A DNA stretch of 33,282 nucleotides from a virus: IMG/VR virus record IMGVR_UViG_3300047089_000316, positions 1-33,282 of that record. One strand, given 5' to 3'. This document shows, piece after piece, positions 5,884 to 28,266 of this stretch; position 1 is the first letter of the stretch; the number at the start of each line of letters is the position of its first letter. A program made the translations under genes and the position numbers. The notes under the pieces were generated by a model, which made no database searches, was not told the DNA's origin, and worked only from the letters and a program-made list of their open reading frames with translations.

Positions 5884-5899
5884 AGCGAAACGCCTCCCG

Positions 5900-6754: not shown

Positions 6755-9138
6755 CAGGTACCTCGGGCGGGCACGGCGCCGTGTTCGGCAGCCGCCCGCT
6801 TTGCCCATGGAGTGGATTTGAAGCCAGCGCGCTCGCTGAGTTCCTGCTTGTGCTTGCCCGTCGCGCGCGCGATGGTCTTGCCGTCGACGCACACCTTGCT
6901 GTCAACGTTCAGTTCGTCTGGCATCGCGCCCGCTACTGCATCGCCCACGGCGTTGCCGATAGCGGCGGCATCGAGCGCCTTCTGATCAACCACCATGGTG
7001 TCTCGTTCATTGCTGTCGAGCACGATGTCTTCAGCCGCTGAACCGCCTGAGCCGCCCATGCCTCGCTCGCTGCGCCCGACGTCGATCTTGAACTCGTCCT
7101 GGCCGAAGTCCTGCATCTTCTTGCCCCAGTCGAAGCCGGCGAGCTCGGCGATGTAGCCCAAGCCGAACGACAGCTGTTTGATAAAGTTCACGATCGATTC
7201 CATCACGCTGAGTACAACGTTGCGAATCTTGAAAAAGATTCCCTCCACGATGCCGAACATCAGCGTGAATGCTCCGCCGATGATCGTCGCTGCGGCACCG
7301 GCGATGTTGCCGATGAAAGTGAACACGACCTTGAAGAAAGGGCCAAGCGCCTTGAGCGACTGAAAGATGCCGCCAAACGTATCCGTGAGATCGTTGGTGA
7401 TGTCGCCCCAGATCTCTTTGAACTTGGTCCAGATGACTTCGAAGGCCGGATTGAACCACTCGAAACCGGAGAGGATCGGCTTGATGCCGTTCTCCATGAG
7501 CCAGTTGAATCCACCCACGATGTTGTCGACGATACGCGTGAAAGTGTCTTTCACCGTCTCGCCGTCCTTCTGAAGCATCAGAAAGCCGCCTACGACGAGC
7601 GCGATTGCGGCCAACACCGGCCAGGTGAAGACTGCTCCGATGACCGAGCCAAGTCCCGCGAACACCGGCCAAATCACGTTGGTGATGACATAGGCGATTG
7701 TTCCGAGCGCAACCAACACCGGCGCCACGGCGGCGGCCACGAAGAAGATGACCGTCGCGATCTTGGTGAAGGACTGAATCATTTCTTCAGATCCGCCACC
7801 TGTGAACTGGGCAATCAGATCCATCAGGCGTTGCCTGAGAAGGACGTAACCATGGATCACAATATCGATGCCTTGCCGAATCCCAAGCGCGATGGCGACC
7901 ATGGTTGAGCCGTATTTTGTGGCCGTCTCTTGTGTAAGGCCCTGTTCTGAGTTGATTTCCTTCAAGAGCACCACCAGGCCGACGGCGTAGTCCTTGTACT
8001 GCTTGACCGAGTTCTTGAACGGCTCCAAGAACTGACCCATCGTCTCGATCGAAAACGCTGATACCGCCTTTGTGAGCAAGTCGAGCTGGCCATAGAAGTT
8101 GTCCAACCGCGTCTCGGCCATCTTCTTCGCTTCACCGTTCGCGTTTTCCAACTGACCCACCAATGAGTCGAGCTTGCCGGAGTCGAGGGCTGTTTCCATC
8201 GCCGTGAAGATCTTCTGGCCGCGGACGCCAAAAATCTCGGTGACGGTTCGGGCGCGCTCCATCACGTTCGGGATCTGCTTCACTTTCGTGTGGATCTGCC
8301 TGAAGACATCGACCATGTCCAATCCGCCCTTCGCGGTCTTGGTCATCTTGATGCCCATGTCTTCAAGCAATGCCGCGCCATCCGCCGAAGGCTTCGTCAA
8401 CTTGATGAGCGCTTGCGTAAACGACGTGCCGCCAATTGCGCCGCGCAAACCGGCATCTGCTGCAACGCCTAACGAAGCAGCAAGCACCGGAAGTTCAATG
8501 CCGAGCGTCTTGGCTTCGCCAGCGGCATACTTCATCGACTCGCCCATGCCCACGATGCTCGTGTTCGTTTTGGCGCTCGTGACCGCCAACACGTCAGCGA
8601 AGTAACCCGCGTCGGTGGCCGGCTTCCCGAGCGCACGCAGTGAGTTCGACACGATATCCGTTGTCGTGGCGAGATCGATATTCTCCGCGGCAGCCGCATT
8701 CAGCACCGGCGTGAGCGCGGCAATGGTCTCCGTCTGATCGAAGCCAGCGCGCGCCAAGAACTCCATCGCCTGGCCCGTTTCGAATGCACTGAACTTGGTG
8801 CCTAGGCTCTGCTTTTTGGCCTCATCGGTCAGTTGCCCCAATTCTGCTTTTGTGGCTTGCGACACAGCGCCAACTGCTGACATTTGCTGTTCGAACTTCG
8901 CAGCTGTGTCGATGCCCGCGCCAAACGCTAGCGTAGCTGGCATCATGGCGACGCCAGCGCCGCGGGCAGCGCCACCCAGTTGAGCGAAGCCCGCGCCTAC
9001 TCCTTTTGCGGCGTCGACGATGCCAGAAAATTGTCCCTTGAACTTGTCGGCTGCCGAGCCGGCCGACTTCATGCCGGACACGGCTTGGCGTTCGTCAAAC
9101 ATCAGCACGCCGCCTAGACCAACATTTTCAAGGGACAT
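6754..9138 (-). CDS. Tail tape measure protein, TP901-type
   Basis: This 794-residue protein sets tail length and is threaded inside the tube. Residues about 75-330 show the PhageMin_Tail (TP901) core, with AAKFEQQMSAVGAVSQ, FLARAGFDQTETIAALTPVL and SFTQALIKLTKPSADGAALL. Hydrophobic segments lie at roughly 460-530 (VIFFVAAAVAPVLVALG, VLAAIALVVGGFLML) and 600-650, as in tape measures thought to enter the host membrane. The tail end is charged. By length it would predict a fairly short-to-medium tail. The ATG at 9138 has AGGA five bases upstream and lies six bases after the frameshifted chaperone frame, the standard arrangement. Confidence 0.92.
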   Translation of the reverse strand: MSLENVGLGGVLMFDERQAVSGMKSAGSAADKFKGQFSGIVDAAKGVGAGFAQLGGAARGAGVAMMPATLAFGAGIDTAAKFEQQMSAVGAVSQATKAELGQLTDEAKKQSLGTKFSAFETGQAMEFLARAGFDQTETIAALTPVLNAAAAENIDLATTTDIVSNSLRALGKPATDAGYFADVLAVTSAKTNTSIVGMGESMKYAAGEAKTLGIELPVLAASLGVAADAGLRGAIGGTSFTQALIKLTKPSADGAALLEDMGIKMTKTAKGGLDMVDVFRQIHTKVKQIPNVMERARTVTEIFGVRGQKIFTAMETALDSGKLDSLVGQLENANGEAKKMAETRLDNFYGQLDLLTKAVSAFSIETMGQFLEPFKNSVKQYKDYAVGLVVLLKEINSEQGLTQETATKYGSTMVAIALGIRQGIDIVIHGYVLLRQRLMDLIAQFTGGGSEEMIQSFTKIATVIFFVAAAVAPVLVALGTIAYVITNVIWPVFAGLGSVIGAVFTWPVLAAIALVVGGFLMLQKDGETVKDTFTRIVDNIVGGFNWLMENGIKPILSGFEWFNPAFEVIWTKFKEIWGDITNDLTDTFGGIFQSLKALGPFFKVVFTFIGNIAGAAATIIGGAFTLMFGIVEGIFFKIRNVVLSVMESIVNFIKQLSFGLGYIAELAGFDWGKKMQDFGQDEFKIDVGRSERGMGGSGGSAAEDIVLDSNERDTMVVDQKALDAAAIGNAVGDAVAGAMPDELNVDSKVCVDGKTIARATGKHKQELSERAGFKSTPWAKRAAAEHGAVPARGT

Positions 9139-9144
9139 GTTTTC

Positions 9145-9363
9145 CTATCTCCGTCGTCGTGCGCGATGGGACTTCTGCGCCTTTTTTGCCTCGGACAGCT
9201 CGGCCTGCTTCTGTCTCGAAAGACGCTTGAGGTTCCAAGCGCGTTCCACAGTCTCCATCTCTTCGATGTCGCCGTACTTGACGCCGCCCTCTGAGTAGTA
9301 ATAGAGGACGAACGCTTCTTCCCGAATCTCGTCGGCCGATGCTATCGGGAAGAAGCGCCGAAA
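9145..9363 (-). CDS. Tail assembly chaperone, -1 frameshift extension (T part of G-T)
   Basis: This segment is read only after a -1 shift from the upstream chaperone frame. It adds 72 residues, beginning FRRFFPIASADEIREEA and continuing through VLYYYSEGGVKYGDIEE to a very basic end (KKAQKSHRARRRR). The joined product would be about 380 residues. In lambda and many other phages the shorter G and longer G-T forms together coat the tape measure and recruit tube subunits. The same frame is open back to an ATG at 9444, but that stretch is antisense-like to nothing and overlaps the coding end of the first frame. No ribosome site is evident there, so an independent start is unlikely. Confidence 0.8.
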   Translation of the reverse strand, partial: FRRFFPIASADEIREEAFVLYYYSEGGVKYGDIEEMETVERAWNLKRLSRQKQAELSEAKKAQKSHRARRRR

Positions 9364-9369
9364 AAATTT
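9313..9369 (-). promoter_or_regulatory. Programmed -1 ribosomal frameshift signal (slippery run plus stem-loop)
   Basis: On the minus strand the first frame reads AAT TTT TTC inside the run AAATTTTTTC (9369-9360). This contains two canonical X-XXY-YYZ heptamers, A AAT TTT and T TTT TTC. A shift of -1 enters exactly the frame that ends at 9145. Five bases after the first heptamer a perfect 13-bp inverted repeat begins: CGCTTCTTCCCGA (9357-9345) pairs with TCGGGAAGAAGCG (9325-9313), leaving a 19-base loop. The first frame's TAG (9344-9342) lies in that loop. Slippery site, spacing, stem and position before the tape measure all agree. Confidence 0.85.
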
Positions 9370-10286
9370 CGGTACTTCCAATCGATCGGAAGATTGAATG
9401 CATGCCCGCCGCGCTTGAACTTGGTGCACACTTCCGGCTGGCATGAGCCTTCGAGGCCCATCTTCGGACCGAGAAAGTTCTGGTTGATGCCCTCTTGCAT
9501 CCCTTCGAAGTCAGGCTTCGACAGCTCATCGATCTCGACGAGTGAAAGCGCGACCGGCACGGTCTCGTCGTTCAAGCCGACGATCGCGCCTTGAAGTGCA
9601 AGCGCCTTGATCTCTGTCTCGTTCTGATTGTTCTTCGCGTGCTCCATCAGGCCCCACTTCGGATAGGCCATTTGAAGATGAGTCACGGGCTTGTGCCGGA
9701 GCTCGATGGGATCTTCGAGATTGTAACGCCAGATGATCGCGTCGATGTCTTCGACCGCGACGACGTCGATCGAGTTGAGATCGCCCGTATACGGGAAGCT
9801 GACCCCGCAGCCGATGCGCGGGCAGTCTACGTTCAGACTCAAGCGCGAGCCCATCGTGTGCATGCGCAAGAGGATGTAGATGTAGAACACGTCGGCCATG
9901 TACATCGTCGACAAGACGACCGTCTTGCGCGTGTCATCGAGCTCGTCCATGTTGTGCGGGCCGATGCGTGAGCACATGTTCGCGACCACCAGCGGCACGT
10001 GCTCAGTCATCGTGGCGTCTGGCGCGATCTTCCGCCCGAGCTCGCGATCGTCTTTGGTCTTCCACTTCTTGATCGCGATGTCTTTATGCAGGCGACCGTC
10101 GGAGTCTAGGATGCCGATCGGCATCCGCTGCCCCCACTCGCGCATCGTGGTGGAGATGCGCCGCGGAGTTTCGGACTTGTCGCTTCGCTCGATCAGTTGT
10201 CCGTCGGCTTCGACGGGCAGCTGAGCCAGAAATTTCGACACCCGACGTGGTTCTTTTCGCTCTTCTGTTGTTGCAGGCTCTGTCAT
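9342..10286 (-). CDS. Tail assembly chaperone (G-like), with two CX4C pairs
   Basis: This 314-residue protein is encoded just before the tape measure and runs into the frameshift signal at its 3' end, the hallmark of a tail assembly chaperone. It is larger than lambda G. The N-terminal 50 residues are charged and probably flexible. A central region has CPRIGCGVSFPYTGDL and the C-terminal end has CQPEVC. The two CX4C pairs, about 125 residues apart, could bind one zinc ion, a feature of chaperones in other contractile phages. The ATG at 10286 is preceded by AAGGG eight bases upstream. A GTG one codon earlier is possible. Most ribosomes should stop at 9342 and give this short form. Confidence 0.75.
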   Translation of the reverse strand: MTEPATTEERKEPRRVSKFLAQLPVEADGQLIERSDKSETPRRISTTMREWGQRMPIGILDSDGRLHKDIAIKKWKTKDDRELGRKIAPDATMTEHVPLVVANMCSRIGPHNMDELDDTRKTVVLSTMYMADVFYIYILLRMHTMGSRLSLNVDCPRIGCGVSFPYTGDLNSIDVVAVEDIDAIIWRYNLEDPIELRHKPVTHLQMAYPKWGLMEHAKNNQNETEIKALALQGAIVGLNDETVPVALSLVEIDELSKPDFEGMQEGINQNFLGPKMGLEGSCQPEVCTKFKRGGHAFNLPIDWKYRNFFGASSR

Positions 10287-10405
10287 CACACGGTCCCTTC
10301 AATCGGCCCAAAATACGAGCCTTGATAGGTCAACCAACACATGGGCGAGGCCGTCACGGCACGAACGTGAAGAAGCTTCTTGAGGCTTCGGCCCCGGCGC
10401 CTCGC
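10287..10405 (-). other. Intergenic spacer between tail tube and chaperone genes
   Basis: I see no gene in these about 119 bases. On either strand they contain an 8-bp inverted repeat (GGCGAGGC at 10344-10351 with GCCTCGCC at 10399-10406). Its loop holds a 12-base palindrome, AAGAAGCTTCTT (10370-10381). The right arm touches the tube stop codon. There is no T-run, so it is not a clear terminator. It could stabilise or trim the 3' end of an abundant tube mRNA. The AAGGG for the chaperone gene lies at the low-numbered edge of the coding start. Confidence 0.45.
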
Positions 10406-10843
10406 CTACAGCGGCAAGACGTCGTCTGCGGAAAGAGTCCACTCGACCAGCGCGATCTCGCCTTCGTTCTTGGCTTCGAGGTCCGGGAGAGCGCGCTTCT
10501 TGGGGAAGACGCCCGCGAGTGAAAACGTGCGCGCCGTCTGCCCCGAAAGGCTTTCGTGCGTGAGCGTGACGGGTTTTTTGTACGCAGGATCGATCGGGTC
10601 TTGGGAATCGCGGTACCACTTTTCGAGCGCCGCTTGCTCGACAGTGTGGTGCAGCGGAACCTTGATCGTGAACTCTGTCGCCTTCCGAAAGCCACCGCTT
10701 GCAACGGTGCGATCGGGCAACTCGGTCGTTTCGAGCTCGTCTTCGATTCCCGACACTTCGAGCGCCGTGATGGACAGAAGTCCCACGACCTGAAGCGTGT
10801 ATTTGTTGACCGGGATGTGGTCGGGTAAAATCTCGCCCTTCAC
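10406..10843 (-). CDS. Tail tube protein, T4 gp19-like
   Basis: This 145-residue protein matches the phage_T4_gp19 tube family, whose hexamers stack to form the inner tube through which DNA passes. The visible pattern is typical. There is a strand-rich start, then ALEVSGIEDELETTEL, then GFRKATEFTIKVPLHH, an AALEKWYRDSQDP segment, and a final strand near GEIALVEWTLS. Length is normal for the family. It begins with GTG at 10843, preceded by GGAGGG six bases upstream, a strong site that compensates for the weak start codon. It follows the sheath by one gene, and a structured spacer follows it. Confidence 0.88.
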   Translation of the reverse strand: MKGEILPDHIPVNKYTLQVVGLLSITALEVSGIEDELETTELPDRTVASGGFRKATEFTIKVPLHHTVEQAALEKWYRDSQDPIDPAYKKPVTLTHESLSGQTARTFSLAGVFPKKRALPDLEAKNEGEIALVEWTLSADDVLPL

Positions 10844-16025: not shown

Positions 16026-17126
16026 TTAGATCCAAGTCGGATTGGCAGGCGTCGCCATGCCAGTCGGGGCCTTGTAGAGCCGGATGATCATCTCGACCTC
16101 CGGATCGTTGACGAGGCCGTTCAGGCCCGGCTTGCGCGGTACGATCTCGCCGCCGCTCAGCTGGTATTTGATCTGATGCCCGTCGGTCCATTCCTCCTTG
16201 ACCATTCCGGTTGTGATCGCCGGAGGTGCGAGCCCCATCGGCGGATCGCCCACCAGAGGCAGCGATAGGTTCCGAATGACCAACTTGAGCAGCGCGCGCT
16301 TGATCATCGCAGGCGTTGAGCCATCAGACTCGACGTAGCCGAACACGCCTTTGACAAACTGATTTTGCCGACCCTTGTGAAAGCGACTTCGTTGCGTACG
16401 GTCGGACGCCGTGTAGATGTCGCGGTCGTACCCGAATGTGTCGACGAGCTTGATGCGAGGGTTTTTGCGATCGTCAGGCAAAAGACATCCCGCGTACACG
16501 CGATAGCGACCAGGATCGAGCGCCACCGTGTCGTTGTTCATCTTCAGTGTCTCGACCGAGATGATCGGAATCGGCAAATGCAGCGTGTCGCTGTCGGTGC
16601 CGTCGAGATAGAACTGGGTAGGAATAGGCCGAAACCACTGGCGCGTAGCGCGCTCTAGCACTTGCTGCCAAAGCAAAATCGAAGCGAAGATCGTGGCGTC
16701 ATCCGGTGGGTCGACGTTCACGCCTGCCGCGCGCACGTCAGCGACGCTGATGTACGTTGCTCCGGCCCCGAGCGACGCCGACGACAGCACCTCGAACTCT
16801 TCGCTGAAAAACTGCTCAGGGCTCGCCGGCAAGTAGCGCGTGTACCACCGGATCTCCCACGTGCCGATCAGTGCGTTGGCCGGCACCGTGAACTTTGCGA
16901 CGTAGTGGCCTGTCGCGAGCTGATCGCCCGTGGGGTACGCGTTGAGGTTCACGACCTGTCGACCCGATGACGGATACACCAAGGTCGGAACGCTTGGCGT
17001 CGACACCTTTTCGAAGATCTGAAATGACAACTCCGACACGTTGATCGGCCCAGAGCTATCCGCCATGAACACATCGAGCTTCGGGTTCGATGCGTCGCTC
17101 ACTTCGTTTCTCGTCAATGCTGGCAT
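16026..17126 (-). CDS. Head-tail adaptor with N-terminal Ig-like domain
   Basis: This 366-residue protein combines two parts. Residues about 20-115 form a beta-sandwich-like domain (ISVSELSF-like strand, ATGHYVAKFTVPANALIGTW, EIRWYTRY, FSEEFEVLSS). This pattern is seen in Ig-like attachments of virion proteins. Residues about 125-366 begin ATYISVADVRAAGVNVDPPD and continue DATIFASILLWQQVLERATR, WFRPIP. That matches HK97 gp6-like connectors, which form a ring under the portal. Classical gp6 is about 100 residues, so the extra domain and the long C-terminus are unusual. The ATG at 17126 lies one base after the fibre gene's TAA, with GGAGG inside that gene. Confidence 0.7.
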   Translation of the reverse strand: MPALTRNEVSDASNPKLDVFMADSSGPINVSELSFQIFEKVSTPSVPTLVYPSSGRQVVNLNAYPTGDQLATGHYVAKFTVPANALIGTWEIRWYTRYLPASPEQFFSEEFEVLSSASLGAGATYISVADVRAAGVNVDPPDDATIFASILLWQQVLERATRQWFRPIPTQFYLDGTDSDTLHLPIPIISVETLKMNNDTVALDPGRYRVYAGCLLPDDRKNPRIKLVDTFGYDRDIYTASDRTQRSRFHKGRQNQFVKGVFGYVESDGSTPAMIKRALLKLVIRNLSLPLVGDPPMGLAPPAITTGMVKEEWTDGHQIKYQLSGGEIVPRKPGLNGLVNDPEVEMIIRLYKAPTGMATPANPTWI

Positions 17127-17127
17127 G

Positions 17128-20100
17128 TTATGTCGCCTCCACCGAATCGCCGAACTCGATTGTCAGACTCGCGCCTGGATTCAACTGATCTGTCACCGTG
17201 ATGTAGTCGCCAAGGTTCAAGACGAAGCCCACCGGGCCCGTCGAAAGATCCGGGCCGTGTGAAATCGTCAGTGGCCCCGCGGCCGCGACCGTGTACATCG
17301 CGATCGGTCCGATGTTCACGCCTCCGCTGATGCCATGTGGAGCGAACACGAGTTCGCCCGTAAATACACTGTCTTCCGATATGGATGCGTCACTGATGCT
17401 TCGCGACGTCGACACGGCGCGCGTCATGGCATCAGCAACCATGACTGCGTCGGCGCTCAGTGAGAAGATGTCGGTTTCGAGATGATCAGCGATCGCAACC
17501 GCGTCGCCGGCAGATCCGCCTAGCACGCGCTGAGCGACCAACGCGTCGACGGCTGCAGCGACGTCGTAGAGTAACTTCGCAGTCGCACTCGCTTTCTTGA
17601 GCGAGTCGATCGCGACTACAGCATCGAAGAGCTCGACGACGATCCCGTCTTGCCGGATCTCGATTGCGTCGTCCGTAGTCACGGCGTCGACAACGGCTCG
17701 CGCATAGGCAATAGCGCGTGCGACACGGTCAGATGTCACAACGGCGTCGCTAGTTGCGACTTCGGCACCGCGACTCGTGACGGCCGACACTTGATCGGCA
17801 AGGACTACGCCGTCACTCACCGTTCGAACAAAGATGCAATCGAAAACGACCGAATCGACAACGATAGCGACGTCGTCGAGGGCGACCCGCTTGAAGCCGT
17901 TCAGGGCGAACGCAATGGAATCGGCGACGGCAACCGTGTCCGAGCCCGCTCGCGCCGCGCTGTGCGCCCGCTCTAAGGCGTCCACCACGGCGGTGGCATC
18001 AGACGTCGTCCGCCACAAACTCCGGGCACTGGCGAGCGTGTCGGCCGCCACGATGGCGTCCGACGTTGTCAGGCTCTTGGCCCTGCTCTGACTGAGCGCC
18101 TCGCTCACCGTGACGGTGTCGACAAGGAGTCGGACCGTGCTCGTCGCCCTGGTCAAGGCGTCTGTGACGTCTACGGCGTCGGCAACGGCCAAGAGAAACG
18201 CGCCGGCAATGGATACTTGAGCGCCATCCGAGACCGTGACAGCGTCGCTGGCGGCCGCGCGGGACAAGCTGATGGCCCGCGCGACGACGTCGACAACTGA
18301 AGCCGCGTCGGAAATCGACGTCGATCGCGTCGTCGTAAGCCTGTCGGCGCTTGTGACCGCGTCTGTGGTCGAGCGCGCATAGCGCAGCGATATCGAAAGA
18401 AGATCTGCGATGCCGATGGCATCTGTATGGGCCAGCGACACGACCACTGACACTTGGTCAACGACGCTTGGCGCATCGGAAATGACGCGTCCGAAAGTTA
18501 CTTTCGCCGCGAGCGCATCGGACAGAGTTACGCTATTTGCGATGACGACGGCGCGCTCGACAAGCACTCCATCGAGCGCCAGCAGCGTGTCATTCGGTTG
18601 GCGCCCATACAGTGCCGTGCGGGCCGTCAGATCGACGAGCGCCACGGTGTCGGCCGCTTGACGACTCAGCACGCGACCGACCGCCAGCGAGTCGGTCACC
18701 ACGGCCGTATCGGAAGCCTGACGACTTCGCGTCAACGTGCGGGCTGCAGAATCTGTGACGACGGCAGTGTCCGAGAGAACTCGGCCAAATGTCGTTGTAC
18801 GCGCCAGCGAGTCTGTCACGACGGTCGTGTCGGAAGCCAGACGACGGCCGTACGTCGTGGTGCGCGCCATGGAGTCGGACGCGGCCGTTGCGTCTGAAAT
18901 CTGCCGACTCCGCGTCGGGGCGCTCGCGACGGACTCAGTAGCGACCACAGCGTCACTGACCACGCGACCGTGTGTCGCCGTGCGCGCCAGCGAGTCGGTC
19001 ACCACGGCCGTATCGGAAGCCTGACGACTTCGCGTCAACGTGCGGGCTGCAGAATCTGTGACGACGGCAGTGTCCGTCGAAGCGCGCTGAAAGGTCGCTG
19101 TACGCGCGAGCGAATCCGTCACCACAGCCGTGTCGGAAACGGTCTTGATCTTCGTGGCTGTGCGCGCGACCGAATCAGTGACCGCGACTGTGTCTGACGC
19201 CTGACGACTTCGAGTGAGAGTGCGAGCCGCCGAGTCTGTTACCACAGCCGTGTCGGAAGCGGTCTTGATCTTCGTGGCTGTGCGCGCGACCGAGTCAGCG
19301 ACAACCGCAGTATCGCTGATCACGCGACCATACGTTGTGGTGCGCGCCAGCGAGTCTGTCACCGCGGCCGTATCGGAAGCCTGACGACTTCGCGTCAACG
19401 TGCGCGAAGCGGAATCGGAGATCGTGACCGAATCATTCGCGACGGTGCGAAGAAACAAAAGTCCAATGGAATCGGTGACCGCAACTGTGTCACTCGCGGA
19501 AACAGTATAGACCTGACCGATGAATCCGAGCGTGAACAAGCCAATGATGTGTTGGCCCGCACTTGACGCCGACGTATTCGTGGCCCACACGACCGTATCG
19601 CGATCGGTCCAAGCGCCGATTCTATTCGGAGAATCCAAATTGCCGTTGAAAGCGCCTTGAAACGCCGAAGCCGTCTCTCGTCGCCGCTTACGCGTTAGTC
19701 CGGTCGCGCCATATGCAAAAGAACCCTGATTGCCGACTGAGTATTTGTAATTTGCGTGCCCTTCAGAAAAGCTCGCGGCGCTCGATCCGGCCGCCGTCGT
19801 AGACCGACACATGACCGAGTGCGAAAGCTTCTTTGTCGTCAACGACTGGCCCATGCCGATCGTCGGAAAGACCTGACTTACGCCCGGAGTGCCAGTTGAC
19901 TCGCACCTCTGAAGCTCGACCTGCGCCGGAAAATAGGTTGCGTTGCCCCAGTTGAGAGCGAGATACCAAAAATAGTCGGTATTGCTACCGGTCCATGACC
20001 AACCGCTTGATGTCGCCTGAGCAAACTGCAGATCGTATTGAGCCGCACCCGCCTGACTTTGTGTGTAGAAACTCTGATCGCGAACGATCGCGCTGTTGCT

Positions 20101-21360
20101 GGCTTCGAGCGAGGCGGCCCACGCTGCACCCGTGTTAGGGTCGAGCCAGCCAACGCTCATTTGGGCCGCGGCGCCGCCACCGCGCGTCAAACTCGTGTCG
20201 CCGGTCGCATTGATGCCGACGATATGGGCCATGTCTGGCCGCCACGGCAAGGCACTCAACGGACTAGCAGATCCGTCTTTCGCGCCGCATACGGCTGCGA
20301 GATCCGAACCGCCAAATGCAATGTAGTGAAAGTCCCATCCGCTCGTATCGACAACCGACCAATTTAGTCTAAATCCGTCAGTTATTCGGCTGTAAACAGC
20401 AAGCAACGACGGAGACACAGCCGTGGAGAAAAACGCACCGACAATCTTTCCAATCTGAGAAAACCCGCCCGTGCCGCCTGAAACGCCACTCGTGGCCCAC
20501 ATAGCGCCACAGCGCTGAGAGGCTGTGCTCACGCCATCATCAGCGCCTATTCCGTGCATGTACTCAACGTCGGTCGGCACCACGCCGCTGACATTCGTCC
20601 GCATGCCGTAAATGATCAGTGCCTTGCAGTCGAACCCAAGCCCTGTGATATCTTGATTTCCGGTCGACGTCGGACTCGTCAACGAGCCCGTTGCGACCCG
20701 GATGTCTTTTGGCGTCGCGGTTTGCGGCGGCTGAAGCACGAACATGTGCTGCGTGAGAGACGCATTACCCGAGCCCGACATCAGCTGGCTCGCGGTGCCG
20801 GTGCTTGTGCCAGACGTCGCAAAATCTTGCGTCTGGGCATACAGACACATCGTGTTGCTGAGGTCTAACCGCTCAGTCCAACCTGTAGCCGGCGAGATGC
20901 CTGAGCGGTTCGCTCCGACCGCGCCGATAGCGAGCGCAAGGCAATCGGCGACCGGCGTAGTTTCGGCGAGCCACGTCCAAGTGTCGCTACTGGTGATTTG
21001 GACTGAACGGCGACAGATAGGCCGCGTCTGGTCAGCGCCACGAATGCAAAAAACGACGGCTGAATAGTCGGCGGCAGACAACGAGCTGAACGCAGGAGAA
21101 TTGCTATCGCCAGCTTCACGAATTTTCCAAAAGACCGAAGCACTAAGGTCGTTCCATGAAGCACCAAGTCGATGCCAACCGGCCGGCGCGTTGACATGAG
21201 AGTCTCCGGTCGACCCTACGTTTGCTTTTGAGATGAACGCAATCAGCAGATCGCCATTGGCGGGTGCGCCACCGGCGTTGATCGTGGAAATCGTGACGGT
21301 GTGCGATGTCGCCGCCGTGCCACTCGCGTGTGCTTCGCCAACGTAAGTCGGAATGGCCAT
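17128..21360 (-). CDS. Large fibre-like virion protein with about 35 copies of a 20-residue repeat
   Basis: This 1410-residue protein has three parts. Residues 1 to about 210 form a strand-rich domain with NGDLLIAFISKANVG, APAGWHRLG, and AVVFCIRGAD. A second globular region, about 220-615, carries KALIIYGMRTN and YFWYLALNWGN. Both look like lectin-type or jelly-roll fibre domains. Residues about 620-1330 are roughly 35 tandem units of about 20 residues with the core SDT-A-V-V-T-D-S and an ART-x-T linker. A short end domain closes with LTIEFGDSVEAT. The repeats are Ser/Thr/Asp-rich with almost no Cys. Gene order puts it among head and neck genes, not after the baseplate, so a head fibre, collar whisker or decoration is as likely as a tail fibre. 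I used ATG 21360 (AGG four bases upstream); a GTG at 21432 is less likely. Confidence 0.82.
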   Translation of the reverse strand: MAIPTYVGEAHASGTAATSHTVTISTINAGGAPANGDLLIAFISKANVGSTGDSHVNAPAGWHRLGASWNDLSASVFWKIREAGDSNSPAFSSLSAADYSAVVFCIRGADQTRPICRRSVQITSSDTWTWLAETTPVADCLALAIGAVGANRSGISPATGWTERLDLSNTMCLYAQTQDFATSGTSTGTASQLMSGSGNASLTQHMFVLQPPQTATPKDIRVATGSLTSPTSTGNQDITGLGFDCKALIIYGMRTNVSGVVPTDVEYMHGIGADDGVSTASQRCGAMWATSGVSGGTGGFSQIGKIVGAFFSTAVSPSLLAVYSRITDGFRLNWSVVDTSGWDFHYIAFGGSDLAAVCGAKDGSASPLSALPWRPDMAHIVGINATGDTSLTRGGGAAAQMSVGWLDPNTGAAWAASLEASNSAIVRDQSFYTQSQAGAAQYDLQFAQATSSGWSWTGSNTDYFWYLALNWGNATYFPAQVELQRCESTGTPGVSQVFPTIGMGQSLTTKKLSHSVMCRSTTAAGSSAASFSEGHANYKYSVGNQGSFAYGATGLTRKRRRETASAFQGAFNGNLDSPNRIGAWTDRDTVVWATNTSASSAGQHIIGLFTLGFIGQVYTVSASDTVAVTDSIGLLFLRTVANDSVTISDSASRTLTRSRQASDTAAVTDSLARTTTYGRVISDTAVVADSVARTATKIKTASDTAVVTDSAARTLTRSRQASDTVAVTDSVARTATKIKTVSDTAVVTDSLARTATFQRASTDTAVVTDSAARTLTRSRQASDTAVVTDSLARTATHGRVVSDAVVATESVASAPTRSRQISDATAASDSMARTTTYGRRLASDTTVVTDSLARTTTFGRVLSDTAVVTDSAARTLTRSRQASDTAVVTDSLAVGRVLSRQAADTVALVDLTARTALYGRQPNDTLLALDGVLVERAVVIANSVTLSDALAAKVTFGRVISDAPSVVDQVSVVVSLAHTDAIGIADLLSISLRYARSTTDAVTSADRLTTTRSTSISDAASVVDVVARAISLSRAAASDAVTVSDGAQVSIAGAFLLAVADAVDVTDALTRATSTVRLLVDTVTVSEALSQSRAKSLTTSDAIVAADTLASARSLWRTTSDATAVVDALERAHSAARAGSDTVAVADSIAFALNGFKRVALDDVAIVVDSVVFDCIFVRTVSDGVVLADQVSAVTSRGAEVATSDAVVTSDRVARAIAYARAVVDAVTTDDAIEIRQDGIVVELFDAVVAIDSLKKASATAKLLYDVAAAVDALVAQRVLGGSAGDAVAIADHLETDIFSLSADAVMVADAMTRAVSTSRSISDASISEDSVFTGELVFAPHGISGGVNIGPIAMYTVAAAGPLTISHGPDLSTGPVGFVLNLGDYITVTDQLNPGASLTIEFGDSVEAT
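18682..18773 (-). repeat. 92-bp perfect direct repeat, copy 1
   Basis: This block is identical over 92 bases to 18985-19076. A 40-base part also recurs exactly at 19365-19404. The three copies lie about 300 and 330 bases apart. Perfect identity while neighbouring units have drifted points to recent duplication or gene conversion within the fibre gene. Confidence 0.92.
18985..19076 (-). repeat. 92-bp perfect direct repeat, copy 2
   Basis: This is the second copy of the block at 18682-18773. Its start offset is 303 bases, a whole number of codons, so exchange between the copies would keep the reading frame and only change repeat number. Confidence 0.92.
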
Positions 21361-21531
21361 GGACCTACTCGCCTCCGCTCCGATGGCGTGAACGACCACG
21401 GCGCCAGCATTCGCGGCATGACGCCGCGACACTCTGCACTTGCACCGTGGTCGAGCCCAGACTCGTCATAGGGAGCCACCCGCCTTCAGGGTCCTGACGA
21501 GCCCCGAATCCAGAAGCGGATCGGGCGCCCG
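21361..21531 (-). other. Non-coding spacer upstream of the fibre gene
   Basis: About 170 bases lie between the zinc-ribbon stop and the fibre start. This is the longest spacer in the window. I see no convincing small gene in it. It contains most of the stem-loop at 21493-21536 and GGAGG-like bases just before the fibre ATG. A promoter is possible, but I cannot point to clear -35 and -10 boxes in this GC-rich DNA. Confidence 0.5.
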
Positions 21532-21536
21532 TCAGG
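21493..21536 (-). other. Long stem-loop over the zinc-ribbon stop codon
   Basis: On the minus strand the 44 bases from 21536 to 21493 fold into a 19-position stem around a six-base loop (GCTTCT). CCTGACG pairs with CGTCAGG at the base and GATCC with GGATT at the top. Two positions mismatch. Two pairs are G-U only in the minus-strand RNA, so the structure is better in that transcript than in its complement. No T-run follows, so it is not a standard terminator. RNA processing or protection is possible. Confidence 0.65.
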
Positions 21537-21873
21537 CAGTAAACACGTTCCTACAGGTCGGATCGGAGCACACGCGTTCGGTCGTGGCACCGGAGATGCC
21601 TGACTTGTGCATCTTCGTCTCGCGTCCGCACTTCGCGCACGGGAAGTGCGGGCTCTCATCGTTGGGTCCGCTCCGTGGAACTTCTTCGGGTGCTGGCTGC
21701 ACTTTACGACACGTGGCGGACGAGCATATGCGTTCAGACTCGTCGTGCCGCGGCGCCTCCCCGTACGGTCTCGATTCCGCACCGCATTCGGGGCATGGAA
21801 AAGAAGCTTCGACGGGCACGACTTCGATAGAAGCCGCGACCACGTCGGTCATGTGTTGGCGATCGTTCGCCAT
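21532..21873 (-). CDS. Tandem zinc-ribbon protein
   Basis: This 113-residue protein contains two similar zinc ribbons. The first has FPCPECG (C27, C30) and CSSATC (C50, C55). The second has FPCAKCG (C79, C82) and CSDPTC (C102, C107). Spacing within each ribbon is nearly the same (CX2C-X19-CX4C), showing an internal duplication. A Pro/Glu-rich linker of about 20 residues joins them. Zinc ribbons bind nucleic acid or protein; there is nothing here to choose between these. Its place in a structural operon suggests an assembly or small virion role. The ATG at 21873 overlaps the previous gene's TGA by one base, so translation is probably coupled. A second ATG at codon 8 is possible. Confidence 0.8.
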   Translation of the reverse strand: MANDRQHMTDVVAASIEVVPVEASFPCPECGAESRPYGEAPRHDESERICSSATCRKVQPAPEEVPRSGPNDESPHFPCAKCGRETKMHKSGISGATTERVCSDPTCRNVFTA

Positions 21874-22361
21874 CAGGTGATCCGGACGTTGTACGTCAGC
21901 TTGAGTTTGTCCGCCGTGGTCTTATTGACCGCGGTGAACACTGCGCGCATCAGACACGAGCCACCGGGGCTCGTATTCTGATTGAGCACGACGACTTCCT
22001 TGATGTTGGTCGCCGACTTCGAGCCAGCGCCCGACGGATAGCTGATGACGAGCTGAAACGTACGCGTGCCCGCGAGCAGCGTCTTCAAATCGACCGTGTT
22101 GATCGTGCCGGTCACGGGCGTCAGCACGTTGGTCTGGGCGCTTGAAGCGGCGCCCGAGCTGGTGCCGATGCGCATCTGATCCCAGTCGTTCGCGTTCAGG
22201 CCGCACGCCTGACGCCACGTCTGTTTCTTGCCCGAGTTCACGACCAAGTTGTGCGTGCGCGTACGCTGAATCACTTTCGGGCCATCGACGCCGTCGCGAA
22301 TGACTTCGACGTCGACGTAACCGCCAAACTTACGACCTTCGAGAATGTCTTGAACGTTCAT
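21873..22361 (-). CDS. Small beta-rich virion-type protein
   Basis: This 162-residue protein shows a pattern common in uncharacterised phage virion proteins. It has THNLVVNSGKKQTWRQACG, then MRIGTSSGAAS, a strand pair with TFQLVISYPSGAG, and a C-terminal run with LMRAVFTAVNKTTADKLKL and YNVRIT. The IGTG-like turn and the final LMRAVF-AVNK strand are typical of this group, often found near fibres or decoration proteins. I infer a fibre-base or decoration role from these features and from its place two genes before the repeat fibre. The ATG at 22361 has GGAGG about ten bases upstream, inside the end of the glycosyltransferase gene. Confidence 0.7.
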   Translation of the reverse strand: MNVQDILEGRKFGGYVDVEVIRDGVDGPKVIQRTRTHNLVVNSGKKQTWRQACGLNANDWDQMRIGTSSGAASSAQTNVLTPVTGTINTVDLKTLLAGTRTFQLVISYPSGAGSKSATNIKEVVVLNQNTSPGGSCLMRAVFTAVNKTTADKLKLTYNVRIT

Positions 22362-22366
22362 ACCGT

Positions 22367-24211
22367 CTAGTCCTCCGCGGCGCGCCCGCTGAGTGCGCCC
22401 TCTATGAGTGTAACGTTGGCCCTGGCTTCAGCGAAAGCTTCGGGCGGTGAGTCATCAGGCAACAGCTCGACCACGCGCCGACACCATGCCAGCGCTTCAT
22501 CCAACATGCCGAGGTCGCCGCAAACCATCGCCAAGCGCTGCGCCGGCAAGTATGAATAGAACGCGAGATCGATCCACCAAACTGTGATCGGCGGATCTCC
22601 AATCCCCGACGCAGCGATCGTGTAGAAGCGTCGCGCCTTTTCGAGTTCTTTGCCGAGATACGCGATGTCGCCGAGCCACAAGAAGTGCTCGCTGCGACTC
22701 CAATCGTCCCCCGTACAAGCGTGCAAGACGGCAGAAGCTTCTTTCAGCCGACTCTGAATCATCAGCTCTTTGGCCACGATCAGCCGAGCCTGGTACCTCT
22801 GAACTCCGTTGTTTGAGACGACGAGAAACTCTTGGAGGCGATCGAGCGCGCGCGAGACGTCGATGTCGCGCCACTCCTGGCCGAGATAGAAAAGACTCGC
22901 CTCGGACTTGCGCGACAACCAGTCGTCCAGTAGCGCGCTTCTGTTCTGGGCCTTGCGTTGTTTGGCGCGGCTCGCGCCCCGCTCATGGTGGCGATCGTGA
23001 AGCGTCTTGACTTGGCCCAAGACCACGCAAAACGTGCCTTCCGGGAAGTCGAGCACGTTGTGAACCGGGCGCTTGAACCGGATGTCGGGCGCGTTTTGAA
23101 ACAACCACGGAAACGCCCACTGCTGTCCGTTGCCTTGGCGGAGCACGAAGCCCACGCGCGCGGCCTTTGGCAACACGGTGTCGAGCGCGCGCAGCACGTC
23201 ATCGCCCGCGACAAGCCGTTCATGACCCTCGGTCATGAAGATCCAATCGCCGGTGCATTGGTCGATGCATTGGTTGCGAGCCCACGAAAAGTGGATCCCG
23301 TTCTCGCCCATGAACTCTTTGCACGCGCCGTTGCAGATCGGGCACTCGACGATTCGGTGACCCGCGGGCGGGCCCATGGGATCGCGCAAGAAAAATACTT
23401 TGTCCGCATACTGCGCGGCCACTTCCCAGGTGTTGTCTGTCGTGCGTGGATCCACTCCGACGATGAGCTCATCGGCGATCCCGCGCAGCGAAGCGAGCGT
23501 CGGTTCGAGGTCGTGGCCTTCGTCGCGCACGGGCAGCGTTGCCGACAAGCGAAAGCCCTTGTGTGCAAGGGCTCCGCACACGCCGAGCAAATAGGGCCCG
23601 AGCACTTCGACGCGCACGTCGTCGCCGAAATGGTCCTGCAGCTCGTTCTTGAACGTCATCGCGGTGAACTTGACCGTGTGCTGCGGCTCTTCGTCCGGGC
23701 CCAATCGGTTGTTCGGTACGCTGATAATCGCGCCGTACGGCTTCACGAACGCCATGCCCGCGAAGAGTTCAGCGCGCGTAGCGGCGGAGAGATGCTCCAC
23801 GCATTCGGTCGACACGAACAGCGAGACGCCTTCGAACGCCGCCAAGAGATCATCGACTTCCAAGTCGAGACGCTTCGCGTTGACGCCGCGCGCGATGGCC
23901 GATTGAAGCGCGACCTCGCTGTTGTCGATCACGACAACGCTCTCGACGTTGGCGAGCGCGGACAACTGCTCCGCCAGCACGCCAAGTCCGCCGCCGATGT
24001 CCGCGATTCGCAGCGCTTCTATCGCCTTGATGCTGCCGACGATTCTGCTCGCACGTGCGTACACGCGCGCGAGCGCTTGCGTGCGCCACGTCTCTTCGTC
24101 TTCCTTCTGCCACAGCGCGTCCCACAGGTCCGCCGCGTTGTGCCGGCGCGCTTGCTCTTCGATCTCGTTTCTCAGTTCACGCTCGACGTATTGGGCGATG
24201 GCTTCGGCCAT
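22367..24211 (-). CDS. Methyltransferase - family 2 glycosyltransferase - TPR fusion
   Basis: This 614-residue protein joins three parts. Residues about 40-215 look like a class I SAM methyltransferase. Motif I is IADIGGGLG at 69-77, the acidic end of strand 2 is VVVIDNSE, and a later SVPNNR loop is present. Residues about 222-400 look like a GT-A glycosyltransferase of family 2. LPVRDEG opens it, VGVDPRTTDNT (D254) is the nucleotide-sugar loop, and GDWIFMTEGHERL (about 321-333) stands where the metal-binding acidic motif is expected. An insertion with CPICNGAC lies at 290-297. Residues about 440-600 are paired helices like TPRs. I chose ATG 24211, with GAGGG upstream; the frame extends to 24262 without support. 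The target is not shown. Confidence 0.8.
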   Translation of the reverse strand: MAEAIAQYVERELRNEIEEQARRHNAADLWDALWQKEDEETWRTQALARVYARASRIVGSIKAIEALRIADIGGGLGVLAEQLSALANVESVVVIDNSEVALQSAIARGVNAKRLDLEVDDLLAAFEGVSLFVSTECVEHLSAATRAELFAGMAFVKPYGAIISVPNNRLGPDEEPQHTVKFTAMTFKNELQDHFGDDVRVEVLGPYLLGVCGALAHKGFRLSATLPVRDEGHDLEPTLASLRGIADELIVGVDPRTTDNTWEVAAQYADKVFFLRDPMGPPAGHRIVECPICNGACKEFMGENGIHFSWARNQCIDQCTGDWIFMTEGHERLVAGDDVLRALDTVLPKAARVGFVLRQGNGQQWAFPWLFQNAPDIRFKRPVHNVLDFPEGTFCVVLGQVKTLHDRHHERGASRAKQRKAQNRSALLDDWLSRKSEASLFYLGQEWRDIDVSRALDRLQEFLVVSNNGVQRYQARLIVAKELMIQSRLKEASAVLHACTGDDWSRSEHFLWLGDIAYLGKELEKARRFYTIAASGIGDPPITVWWIDLAFYSYLPAQRLAMVCGDLGMLDEALAWCRRVVELLPDDSPPEAFAEARANVTLIEGALSGRAAED

Positions 24212-24243
24212 GATCCCTCGCTTTCGTATGCAATTGGGTTTGG

Positions 24244-24717
24244 TTACAGAACGCCGTTCCAAAGTGACTTTGCGATCGATTGCCAGCCGGGCCGATCGTC
24301 GATCTCCTCGACGGTCTCGCTCGCCTCGTCGTCTTGTGCTGCTGCGGCCTTCGTGACCGCGGCACTGTCTTTCGGCTGATAGCCGACGACTTGTTCGACC
24401 TCGGTCAGGGCGCTGAACTCGAATGTCCCGTCTTTGTTGCGGGCGTACGCCGCGGCGTAATAGCGCGAGCGCGAATATTCGTCGCCGTTGGTGGTGCTAT
24501 TGTTGTAGACGTAGATGCTCAAAATGATCGACTTGGAAAAGATCTCGACGGGGTAGCAGCTCGCGTCTTTGGCCCCGAGGTTCAGTTTCTGCTTCGCCCA
24601 CTTCGTGGCTGCTTCGCCGATTTTCCGCGCGTACATCCCGACGCTTTCGCCGGTCGCCAGCGCGATGTCTTTCTGCACGGCCACAAGTTGCGTTTGCTTT
24701 GGCTTCTCTTCAGGCAT
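24244..24717 (-). CDS. Post-capsid protein sharing the scaffold's C-terminal W-S/N-G-V-L tail
   Basis: This 157-residue protein has no family I can name. Residues about 1-50 are helical and basic (KIGEAATKWAKQKL). Residues about 58-112 form a beta-rich unit: FSKSIILSIYVYN, RYYAAAYARNKDGTFEFS, then ALTEVEQVVGYQP. This looks like the small strand domain found near phage protease and scaffold proteins. An acidic linker follows. The last residues, SLWNGVL, closely match the end of the scaffold candidate, SIWSGVL. The DNA at the two 3' ends is also alike. It could be an accessory scaffold or an internal head protein recruited by the same tail. The start ATG 24717 overlaps the upstream gene by eight bases. 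Confidence 0.75.
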   Translation of the reverse strand: MPEEKPKQTQLVAVQKDIALATGESVGMYARKIGEAATKWAKQKLNLGAKDASCYPVEIFSKSIILSIYVYNNSTTNGDEYSRSRYYAAAYARNKDGTFEFSALTEVEQVVGYQPKDSAAVTKAAAAQDDEASETVEEIDDRPGWQSIAKSLWNGVL

Positions 24718-26013: not shown

Positions 26014-27207
26014 CTAGACGCCGAGGCCGATGTTCCGGACCTTGACGATCGCGGAGAGCTCTTCGAACTGGACGTCGACCTTGGACGTGATTGCGTACTG
26101 ATTCACGCCCTTGTAGATGTCGCGGTCGCGCTCGATCCGGATCTCGCGACCGATGCCCACGATGAAGTTGTTTTGGTGCGTCAGGATGAGCTGCGGGCTC
26201 GAACGGTAGGTCACCTTCACGATGTCGCCGGAGCTGATCGCGCCGCCGATGCGTGTGATGGTTCCTGCCGCCGTGTCGACGCTGTAGTCGGTGCCCAAGA
26301 TGTACGGCGCGGTCGGGACCTTTTCGAGCGCGTCGTCGTGCACCACGACGTCGGTGATGTTGGCGTTTTTCAGAGCGACGGCCGTCGTGCCGTTCAACTG
26401 CACGTGTTCGACGGTGAGCGGCTCGAACTCCCAGAGCGGAACGGGCACGGCTTGGATGCCGAACGGTCCAGGCGTACCGCCACCGCCACCGGCAGCGTTG
26501 TCACCGAGTGCGGTCGCGCGCGTGGAGAGTTTCTCCATGTAGAGCTGCCACAGATCCGGGCTCATGAACCATCGCAGTGCAGCACGGTTCCGACGGAACT
26601 TTGTCGGCATCGCACGAATCGCTTTGCTGAAGATCGACAGGCCCACGTTTGCGCCTTGCGCGTCGACCACGTTCGAGCCGTCGGCGAGCACAGACCAGCC
26701 GTCGCTGAGCGCGAGGTAGCTGTCTTTGATTTCGTCGTTCGAGCCGCCTTCGATCAGATCCGATTGCGGGATCGCGGGGCCGAGCTTGTTGCCGTTGAGG
26801 TAGAGATCTTCGAGGTCGTTGGCGAGCTGTGTCGCCATCAGACGAATGATCGTCTCTTCGACGTTGTCGCCCTCGATGTTCAGCTCTCGGAAGTTGTCGC
26901 CGATCTCGAACGGCACCATCAGCTCATGCGGCGTGATGGTGATCTTGCTGGTCGTGATGCCGCGGCGCACTTGCGGGTCGACGCCTTCGGCCTTGGGCAC
27001 AGCGACGCGCTTGCCCACACCGATTTTGTCGATCTCCAAGTTTTCATTGCGGAAGCGCACGATCCGCGCGTTGTCCTTGAGCACGGTTTCGTCGATCACG
27101 AAATCGATGAATCGGTCGGACTGCGCGTCATTCAGTTTTCCGCCAGACGCGAGATCGTTGGCGACGATCGTGGCCTTTCTGACGAGCTCTTCGTTTGCGA
27201 TTGCCAT
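26014..27207 (-). CDS. Major capsid protein, HK97 fold
   Basis: This 397-residue protein is the main head subunit. The N-terminal arm (about 1-60) contains AIANEELVRKATIVAND and RFIDFVIDETVLKDN. The P-domain region has KITITPHELMVPFEIGDNF and ELNIEGDNVEETIIRLMATQ. Near the middle FRRNRAALRWFMSPDLWQL is a typical spine-to-A-domain link. A Gly-rich loop (GGGGGTPGPFG) follows. Residues about 265-335 (VVVHDDALEKVP, then GDIVKVTYRSSP) may form an added surface domain. The end, DVQFEELSAIVKVRNIGL, is diagnostic. ATG 27207 is preceded by GGGAG eleven bases away. Context between scaffold candidate and head genes is as expected. Confidence 0.93.
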   Translation of the reverse strand: MAIANEELVRKATIVANDLASGGKLNDAQSDRFIDFVIDETVLKDNARIVRFRNENLEIDKIGVGKRVAVPKAEGVDPQVRRGITTSKITITPHELMVPFEIGDNFRELNIEGDNVEETIIRLMATQLANDLEDLYLNGNKLGPAIPQSDLIEGGSNDEIKDSYLALSDGWSVLADGSNVVDAQGANVGLSIFSKAIRAMPTKFRRNRAALRWFMSPDLWQLYMEKLSTRATALGDNAAGGGGGTPGPFGIQAVPVPLWEFEPLTVEHVQLNGTTAVALKNANITDVVVHDDALEKVPTAPYILGTDYSVDTAAGTITRIGGAISSGDIVKVTYRSSPQLILTHQNNFIVGIGREIRIERDRDIYKGVNQYAITSKVDVQFEELSAIVKVRNIGLGV

Positions 27208-27268: not shown

Positions 27269-28249
27269 CTACAGAACGCCGCTCCAAATGGAGCCGGACT
27301 TCTTGGTGGAGGTCTCCGTCCCGCCGTCGTTTTCGGCGCTGTTCGAGTCGACGCGGACCTTCTCGATCTTCTCGACGCGCGTGACGAGGCCGCCGACGGC
27401 CGTCGCCAAGCTCTTCAAGAGCGAAACGACTTCGCCCTCTTCGCCATCGGCCGACTTCAGCGTGCCGGTCATGGTCGGCTTCTTGGACGGCTTGGTCAGA
27501 TCGTCGACCGAGCTCGGATTGCCGTGCGACTCGACAGCGGGCGTGTTGGCGTTGGGCGACGTGCCCGGAGTGCCCACGGCTTCGAGGACCAGCTTCAGGA
27601 TCTCTTGCGCGCTCTGCAGCGCCTTGATCCGCTGCGGAGTAAACGCGGCTGCTTTCTGCACCGCCGTGGCGAGCCCGGCCATGGTGAGCGGCTCATCGGC
27701 CAAGAGCGCGTCGAGCTCGTCGTCTGCCTTGCTCTGCGCTGCCTTTGCCTTCTTGGTCTTCGTCTTCTTGCCGTCGTCTTCGTCGCCATCGTCGGCCTGC
27801 CCCTTGCCCGGCTTTTTCGGAGGGAACGGGAAGGCTTTCTTCAGCTTCGTCACGAGAAGCTTCGTCGTCTTCGGGTCGAGCCCGGCTTCTTCCAAGACGC
27901 TTTCCACGCTCACCGACTTCGCGGTCTCGGTCTCGTCGGTGTCTTCGTCGCCGTCGGCGGGCTCATCGCCATCGGCCGGCGCCTTAGTCTCTTTCTTCAC
28001 GGCTACCAGGCCCGTGATCTTCGTGACGATGTCGTTGACGTGTGCCATCGCCTTCGCCACGTTGGCGTCGCCGCCCTCGGCGACTTCGAGCTCGACGGCT
28101 TCGGTTGCTTTCTTTGCAGCTGTGGCTCCCATGCTTAGACCCTCCTGATTTTTGATCACCAAAAAATCGACTTCGTTCGCCGGTGTGTCGACCAAGCTTA
28201 CTTCTTGGGTGTCCAGACCAACGAATCTGCGCTTTGCCTGCTTCGGCAT
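27269..28249 (-). CDS. Scaffold candidate with nested second start (long form)
   Basis: The long form has 326 residues and starts at ATG 28249, with GAGGGAG ten bases upstream. Residues 1-35 contain TQEVSLVDTPANEVDFLVIK, a motif seen at the front of phage proteases and scaffolds. From M40 onward the chain is Ala/Glu/Lys-rich and helical, with acidic linkers (ADGDEPADGDEDTDE), a basic patch (KKTKTKKAKAAQ) and a likely coiled coil near the end (LLKSLATAVGGLVTRVEKIE). This low-complexity helical build and the position between protease and capsid fit a scaffold. The last residues are SIWSGVL. A second ATG at 28132 has a far better ribosome site and would give a 287-residue form lacking the VDTPAN segment. 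The frame's extension to 28381 lies over the protease gene and is rejected. Confidence 0.75.
   Translation of the reverse strand: MPKQAKRRFVGLDTQEVSLVDTPANEVDFLVIKNQEGLSMGATAAKKATEAVELEVAEGGDANVAKAMAHVNDIVTKITGLVAVKKETKAPADGDEPADGDEDTDETETAKSVSVESVLEEAGLDPKTTKLLVTKLKKAFPFPPKKPGKGQADDGDEDDGKKTKTKKAKAAQSKADDELDALLADEPLTMAGLATAVQKAAAFTPQRIKALQSAQEILKLVLEAVGTPGTSPNANTPAVESHGNPSSVDDLTKPSKKPTMTGTLKSADGEEGEVVSLLKSLATAVGGLVTRVEKIEKVRVDSNSAENDGGTETSTKKSGSIWSGVL
28132..28146 (-). promoter_or_regulatory. Internal ribosome site for a short scaffold form
   Basis: AGGAGGG at 28146-28140 precedes an in-frame ATG (28132-28130) by seven bases. It is a near-perfect site inside the open scaffold frame. It should produce a product beginning MGATAAKKATEA that shares the rest of the scaffold. 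Nested starts of this kind are known from lambda C/Nu3. Confidence 0.65.
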
Positions 28250-28266
28250 TGTGTTCGAGCTCCCTC

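Follow-up and report, generated by a model that had tools for sequence, protein, structure and literature searches.

What does a tailed phage build from a protein half of which is a 20-residue repeat, encoded between the genes of its head and its neck? The locus that raises this question lies in a stretch of 33,282 bases (IMGVR_UViG_3300047089_000316; here called the window) from a metagenomic phage known here from sequence alone. The minus strand of the window holds the late-gene block of a contractile-tailed phage, with terminase, portal, minor head, protease, putative capsid, connector, tail completion, sheath, tape measure and baseplate genes. The same phage is present in a longer contig (IMGVR_UViG_3300046680_000412; 81,974 bases), which differs from the window over 20 kb by one substitution and a 24-base indel (99.9% identity) and does not differ at all across another 5,711 bases (100%). 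The indel lies at position 12683 of the window, within the sheath gene, the longer contig being otherwise near-identical. Two overlapping ORFs in different frames (27269-28830) match phrog_3017 (head maturation protease), the N-terminal part in 28267-28830 (E 2.4e-36) and the C-terminal part in 27269-28381 (E 4e-5), a pair that possibly reflects a frame change or a split gene.

A 20-residue repeat forms half of a late phage protein

The array gene (17128-21360, minus strand) encodes 1,410 aa from the ATG at 21360. Its reading frame is open from a GTG at 21432 (17128-21432, minus strand); the ATG, preceded by GGAGCGGAGG, is the likely start, and residue numbers given here count from the GTG. 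The gene is flanked on the same strand by a putative major capsid gene (26014-27207, minus strand), which follows the protease gene, matches phrog_1623 ('virion structural protein') and forms the other border of a variable slot, and by a head-tail connector gene directly downstream (16026-17126, minus strand; phrog_442 at residues 121-283). The connector has about 110 extra N-terminal residues without a PHROG match, and an Ig- or BppU-like reading of this extension had no support from PHROGs in the window. Connectors downstream of arrays have such extensions in the window and in locus L099 (10430-11425), where the extension matches phrog_5707, of unknown function.

The array spans 17335-19494 (minus strand; residues 647-1366) and comprises about 36 units of about 20 residues of the type S-D-x-[VA]-x-V-x-D-S. 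This number follows from 34 motif matches and the pattern of their 33 spacings, 30 of which lie within 18-22 residues (21 at exactly 20), the remainder being 26, 38 and 42. The longest motif chain is 33 units, compared with a maximum of 4 among 5,000 shuffles, and self-identity peaks at lags of 20 (30%), 40 (27%) and 60 residues (23%) against a median of 12%. Serine and threonine together make up 25% of the array, and aspartate 10%. A sequence-only reading of the window had proposed about 35 copies at 17371-19505 and came close on both number and extent; it was right that the repeat forms half of the protein, as the array takes up 720 of 1,410 residues, and that the gene lies among head and neck genes. 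It had also described globular N-terminal domains, a short C-terminal cap and a Ser/Arg linker; about 620 residues do precede the array and a short C-terminal part follows it, both presumably globular, and the linker exists but is merely a few residues long (STSRSISD). A sub-block that is more homogeneous by eye (18655-19437, minus strand; residues 666-926) holds tandem repeats at the DNA level. These have periods of 60 and 120 and lie at 19052-19380, only in the first third of the array, the rest being more diverged, which suggests recent duplication in that third.

We found no curated family for the repeat, in agreement with the sequence-only reading, to which no named domain with this core was known. 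The whole array protein gave no match in Pfam-A at E up to 1, and nothing in NCBIfam exceeded its cutoff; the array resembled the serine-rich model NF033849 (E 1.2e-7) at 29.5 bits against a cutoff of 650. Like the array, NF033849 represents a serine-rich repetitive protein, but the array differs in its phage setting, its 20-residue period and its conserved Asp pair. The only match in PHROGs was a weak one to phrog_12240 (unknown function; E 1.7e-6). No tail-fibre family profile matched the array protein in Pfam or PHROGs, no Ig-like domain of Hoc-type capsid decoration matched it in Pfam, and none of these searches linked the array to a described repeat family with a known tail location. Weak hits in the PDB, to designed helical repeats (at best E 4e-4) and to the Hap autotransporter (E 4e-4), were set aside as probably compositional. 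AlphaFold2 models of five units, built with 11 and 41 aligned rows, had such low confidence (pLDDT 41 and 38) that they define no fold for the repeat, such as a beta-solenoid or beta-spiral shaft, and do no more than suggest about two strands per unit.

Array proteins of one family share a cap and differ in length and N-terminus

Relatives of the phage were fetched by the capsid protein (27 loci) and the sheath protein (51 loci). Family counts, which take any match in the fetched stretches, refer to the 24 of 67 contigs with the capsid and connector genes both in view. The other 43 were left out, among them L259, which has a phrog_5417-like gene and the enzyme gene described below and ends inside the slot. 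The array is present in 7 of the 24 contigs. In array-less relatives, slot content ranges from a few small genes (L277, L286, L300, L309) up to several large proteins; of ten large slot proteins from nine such relatives, six had no PHROG match and four had weak ones, two to families of unknown function and two to 'tail' families (E 3e-4, 9e-4). The slot is hypervariable, with other large proteins in the array-less L287 (2920-6407), L291 (1-6106), L294 (552-3176) and L331 (2-4519).

Array proteins of this family range from 186 to 1,636 aa. The C-terminal cap (17128-17355, minus strand; residues 1360-1434) is found in all six other array-bearing contigs at 40-61% identity; the 186-aa protein is little beyond four units and the cap, and in L289 a cap-like segment is internal. 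The N-terminal region (19495-21360, minus strand; residues 25-646) is present in three of the six at 38-49% identity. No such region was detected in L264 (one contig with L284), where different sequence precedes the array, and it is missing from the short ORFs of L285 and L289. Pfam recognised no fold in this region, and a proposed likeness of its first domain to those of L115 and L058 was dropped (BLASTP against L115, E 2.5; phmmer with three N-terminal pieces against the ORFs collected at that stage, nothing at E up to 1). A constant cap, an array of variable length and an exchangeable N-terminus fit a stalk that is anchored at its C-terminus or close to it and has an interchangeable outer tip, and the stalk-like character proposed from the sequence gains support from the virion-gene setting and from the length variation among relatives. 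As tail fibres are usually held by their N-terminus and the cap is C-terminal here, fibre polarity would be reversed.

The repeat is widespread among phage loci

Motif scans of viral contigs returned 196 loci. Among these and other array loci, 47 have an array of five or more units and fall into 32 clusters at 60% identity; before the clusters were counted, six short loci were swapped for longer pieces of their own records. Because the motif scans are narrow, the repeat occurs in at least 32 clusters. The longest regular array outside the window's family and L024 has 26 chained units (L217). Neighbour genes, where examined, are head, head-tail or tail genes, and in L205 and its kin the arrays lie among head and tail-fibre genes of podovirus-looking phages. 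An N-terminal Laminin_G_3 domain (ConA-like lectin; Pfam) was found in two of seven array proteins scanned (L047, E 3.1e-15; L101, E 1.7e-14). An Ig- or BppU-like reading of genes of about 110 aa beside some arrays had no Pfam support in L101 and L104. In MW202478 (L022, 5833-7791), a gene annotated as tail tubular protein A has, by eye, a long N-terminal array of a different unit, of GTAKTTTFTKQTATL type.

A 100-position array profile detected the arrays of all three viral test records (E <=2e-24), each of which had supplied rows to it, and nothing at E 1e-5 in three cellular test records. At E 1e-10 it found nothing in 235 + 249 + 249 = 733 cellular genomes of three phyla, none of them a known positive. 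As the set held no known-positive genome and diverged arrays would miss this threshold, the result suggests that the repeat may be restricted to phages. A scan of cellular genomes with a stricter motif, giving 17 loci without 20-residue arrays, was discarded; that motif occurs in 1 of the 196 viral loci, which is not an array locus. When a phage collection was searched by tblastn, the whole array protein and the array proteins of L217 and L115 had no match, the array alone matched one record weakly (Pseudoalteromonas phage Y7, E 0.01), and the array protein of L006 hit two records, in both through an inserted domain alone.

A phrog_5417-like gene is linked to the array

The phrog_5417-like gene of the window (21873-22361, minus strand; E 2.4e-9) is a frequent neighbour of array genes. 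Within the window's family it occurs in all seven array carriers and in none of the 17 other contigs, and a gene of this kind also lies close to the array in L004, L104, L101, L099 and L103 (E 8.5e-14 to 2.4e-26). With a model built from these five sequences and that of the window, all six array-linked, we detected the gene in 45 of the 103 motif loci whose chains reach two or more units, compared with 1 of the remaining 93 (Fisher 2e-14, on loci that had not been dereplicated). The counts by cluster and by family used this model as well. Among the 32 array clusters it is present in 21, within three genes of the array in 17 and on the array's strand in 21 of 21; direct adjacency was seen in 9 of the 21 vs 4.2 expected (p 0.012). 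The gene is absent from the stretch examined in the other 11 clusters. The stop of the window's phrog_5417-like gene is overlapped by an ORF of 113 aa (21532-21873, minus strand) with two CxxC...C...C groups, zinc-ribbon-like by eye, and in five relatives the next ORF after the phrog_5417-like gene has 108-114 aa, a correspondence judged by size and position only.

Linkage in the reverse direction is weak: among ten regions of database phages picked by phrog_5417 similarity, a chain of at least four units was found in one (phage Simon, chain 4), the longest chain being 1-2 for BcepGomr, Axy14 and phiAxp-1. Degenerate units can be seen by eye ahead of the phrog_5417 gene in BcepGomr (gp17), EBPR siphovirus (gp36) and phiA008. 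In four of six phages tested (BcepGomr, phiAxp-1, Axy14, Simon), the gene next to that of phrog_5417 falls into phrog_384 ('virion structural protein'), the other two giving no match. BcepGomr-like phages thus resemble the window in having a virion protein gene and then a phrog_5417 gene, and BcepGomr gp17 resembles the array protein in its C-terminal degenerate SD-like units (by eye). Unlike in the window, the pair of BcepGomr, Axy14 and phiAxp-1 sits after the tape measure gene and before a large tail-tip gene, and the motif chains are short. Individual phrog_5417-like proteins cross-match tail-fibre PHROGs and some head-protein PHROGs too, and the phrog_5417 profile weakly matches the baseplate hub of HFTV1 (E 0.003), a virus whose tail is deposited as PDB 9H4P (PMC12494034). 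The phrog_5417-like protein would be a likely adaptor for the array protein.

A methyltransferase-glycosyltransferase accompanies the array in the window's family

The slot of the window also holds a gene (22367-24262, minus strand) for a 631-aa protein that combines methyltransferase, family-2 glycosyltransferase and TPR domains (MT-GT; Pfam), of which PF00535 exceeds its cutoff (E 2.6e-6) and PF13649 and TPR fall just under theirs. MT-GT is present in each of the seven array carriers among the 24 contigs, even the one whose array protein has only 186 aa, and in 1 of 17 non-carriers, a relative (L258/L282) that lacks the array and the phrog_5417-like gene. Capsid identity is 74-100% among carriers and 54-83% among non-carriers found by capsid; as carriers are mostly closer relatives, p-values for co-occurrence are overstated and common descent may explain much of it, so that array, partner and enzyme may have come together by inheritance of a single event. 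The enzyme of the window's myovirus family probably adds sugars, perhaps methylated, to the Ser/Thr-rich stalk. Glycosylation of mycobacteriophage virions provides a precedent. It has been suggested in PMC11256854.

The proximity of the enzyme could also be incidental, MT-GT modifying the capsid or another protein and the array serving as an unmodified stalk. This explanation, which is compatible with the other readings, is quite conceivable, although we lean against it. It would account for the relative that keeps MT-GT alone, it is consistent with possible co-inheritance within the clade, and it agrees with phmmer searches in which five enzyme queries matched array loci of only 3 of the 32 clusters, namely the query sources and near copies. 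Its weak points are the presence of MT-GT in 7 of 7 carriers, the 25% of serine and threonine in the array, and a GT2-methyltransferase fusion about 4 kb from the array of L099, a locus outside the capsid relatives found. In L006 and its relative L024, a group-1 glycosyltransferase gene adjoins the capsid gene within the same cluster. The link between enzyme and array is strong in the window's family and, as the other 29 array clusters gave no enzyme homologue, anecdotal elsewhere.

A second repeat gene follows the baseplate genes

The main array gene lies at the capsid-neck border of the late genes, as would be expected of a neck or collar gene. A second SD-repeat gene of the same phage (1-957, minus strand; cut by the window end) lies directly after a baseplate wedge gene and thus, unlike the main array gene in its capsid-connector slot, downstream of the baseplate genes, where tail-fibre genes are expected. 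It has six motif matches, encodes 696 aa in the longer contig and matches the array profile at E 2e-9. Its chain of four units compares with a maximum of three when the whole protein was shuffled 5,000 times; when only the first 120 residues were shuffled, 2 of 5,000 reached four. The C-terminal part matches a glycosylhydrolase model of NCBIfam under its cutoff. Two genes share the region after this gene, one of them encoding a Tail_P2_I protein. In L016, the post-baseplate SD gene (4755-6845; NF045728, E 4.8e-7, under cutoff) and a gene two further on (8189-10651, 820 aa) have in common, by eye, a C-terminal SPDGxxWT-type repeat, which we take to resemble the Asp-box propeller motif.

The sequence-only reading had regarded gene position, among head and neck genes rather than after the baseplate, as the mark of an appendage of the head or collar, a view that is not supported in this form. 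The array that follows the baseplate genes counts against a head-only role, and so do other loci. In two relatives (G748, G751) the array profile also has a match some 10 kb past the sheath gene, as far from it as in the window, and the head slot of G748 is free of arrays; an array pair lies beside a baseplate wedge gene in L163, and another lies downstream of baseplate genes and, by eye, of a lysis gene in L101. These arrangements raise a serious rival to a head or neck appendage, namely that the protein is an accessory tail or baseplate fibre whose gene just happens to occupy a variable slot next to those of the capsid, with SD repeats serving as general-purpose fibre spacers. The position of the phrog_384/phrog_5417 pair between tape measure and tail-tip genes and the weak match of the phrog_5417 profile to a baseplate hub point the same way. 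However, the long arrays of the window's family sit in the capsid-connector slot, and arrays lie near portal, capsid or terminase genes in L099, L047, L024, L115 and L127. We consider a tail or baseplate fibre a credible explanation that probably does not hold, and we favour the neck or head, by analogy with gene position in known phages.

Discussion

That the array protein is an adhesin expressed late and secreted by the infected host or displayed on its surface, not part of the virion and encoded in the slot by chance, is very improbable: its likeness to the bacterial serine-rich model (E 1.2e-7, sub-cutoff) and to an autotransporter adhesin structure (E 4e-4) may be compositional, whereas the gene lies between capsid and connector genes on their strand, the profile found nothing at E 1e-10 in the 733 cellular genomes of three phyla (none a known positive), and the N-terminus has no signal peptide by eye.

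Several characterized viruses offer partial parallels. In phage Milano, which has a sheathed tail, the collar protein gp13 falls by number between capsid gp9/gp10 and neck gp14, and is beta-rich with one domain structurally similar to glycan-interacting proteins (PMC10491603). The slot of the array gene, directly before the connector, corresponds by gp number to that of Milano gp13, an analogy of gene position and not homology; unlike the array protein, gp13 is a ring protein of two domains and about 230 residues, from which no fibres protrude (PMC10491603). The turrets of HFTV1 are head-borne appendages whose outer domain is proposed to bind glycans and which are proposed to make the first contact (PMC12494034). 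They differ from the array in being two-protein structures on capsid hexamers (PMC12494034). The only match found here is the weak one of the phrog_5417 profile to the HFTV1 baseplate hub, and the parallel is one of analogy, not homology. The neck passage structure and whiskers of lactococcal 936-group phages represent a neck appendage encoded by an accessory late gene, which lies in a hot spot and occurs in some close relatives and not in others (PMC4759559). The array gene is similar in being an accessory late gene in a variable slot, again by analogy and not homology; the 936-group gene, unlike the array gene, lies upstream of the major tail protein gene (PMC4759559).

Overall, we consider it about evenly balanced whether the array protein is a cassette-borne, possibly glycosylated virion stalk, held by its cap and bearing an exchangeable N-terminal tip, with the neck or head as its favoured place. 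In such a stalk, about 36 beta-rich units of 20 residues would form the shaft, whose length would shift by gain or loss of units. The conserved C-terminal cap would be the end, or joint, by which it is attached to the particle or a partner, for which the phrog_5417-like adaptor would be a candidate, and the N-terminal region would form an outer tip open to exchange, probably acting as an adhesin that binds surface glycans. The appendage would most likely sit at the neck or head, the site of the gene slot. A broader version, which we put forward as speculative and on balance doubtful, is a class of glycosylated head or neck fibres of reversed polarity, spread among unrelated tailed phages as a cassette of SD stalk and phrog_5417 adaptor, tuned in length by unit number and joined by the enzyme in the window's family. 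To our knowledge, such a class was not previously known.

Virion fibres and stalks are a known kind of structure; this variant adds a repeat for which no curated family was found and a newly linked partner family, possibly together with reversed polarity and glycosylation. The capsid-connector slot, which ranges from a few small genes to many kilobases, provides a natural comparison of related phages with and without the array. Two blanks in annotation, the SD repeat and phrog_5417, are thereby brought together with MT-GT, in one family, into a single testable hypothesis, that of a modular virion appendage.
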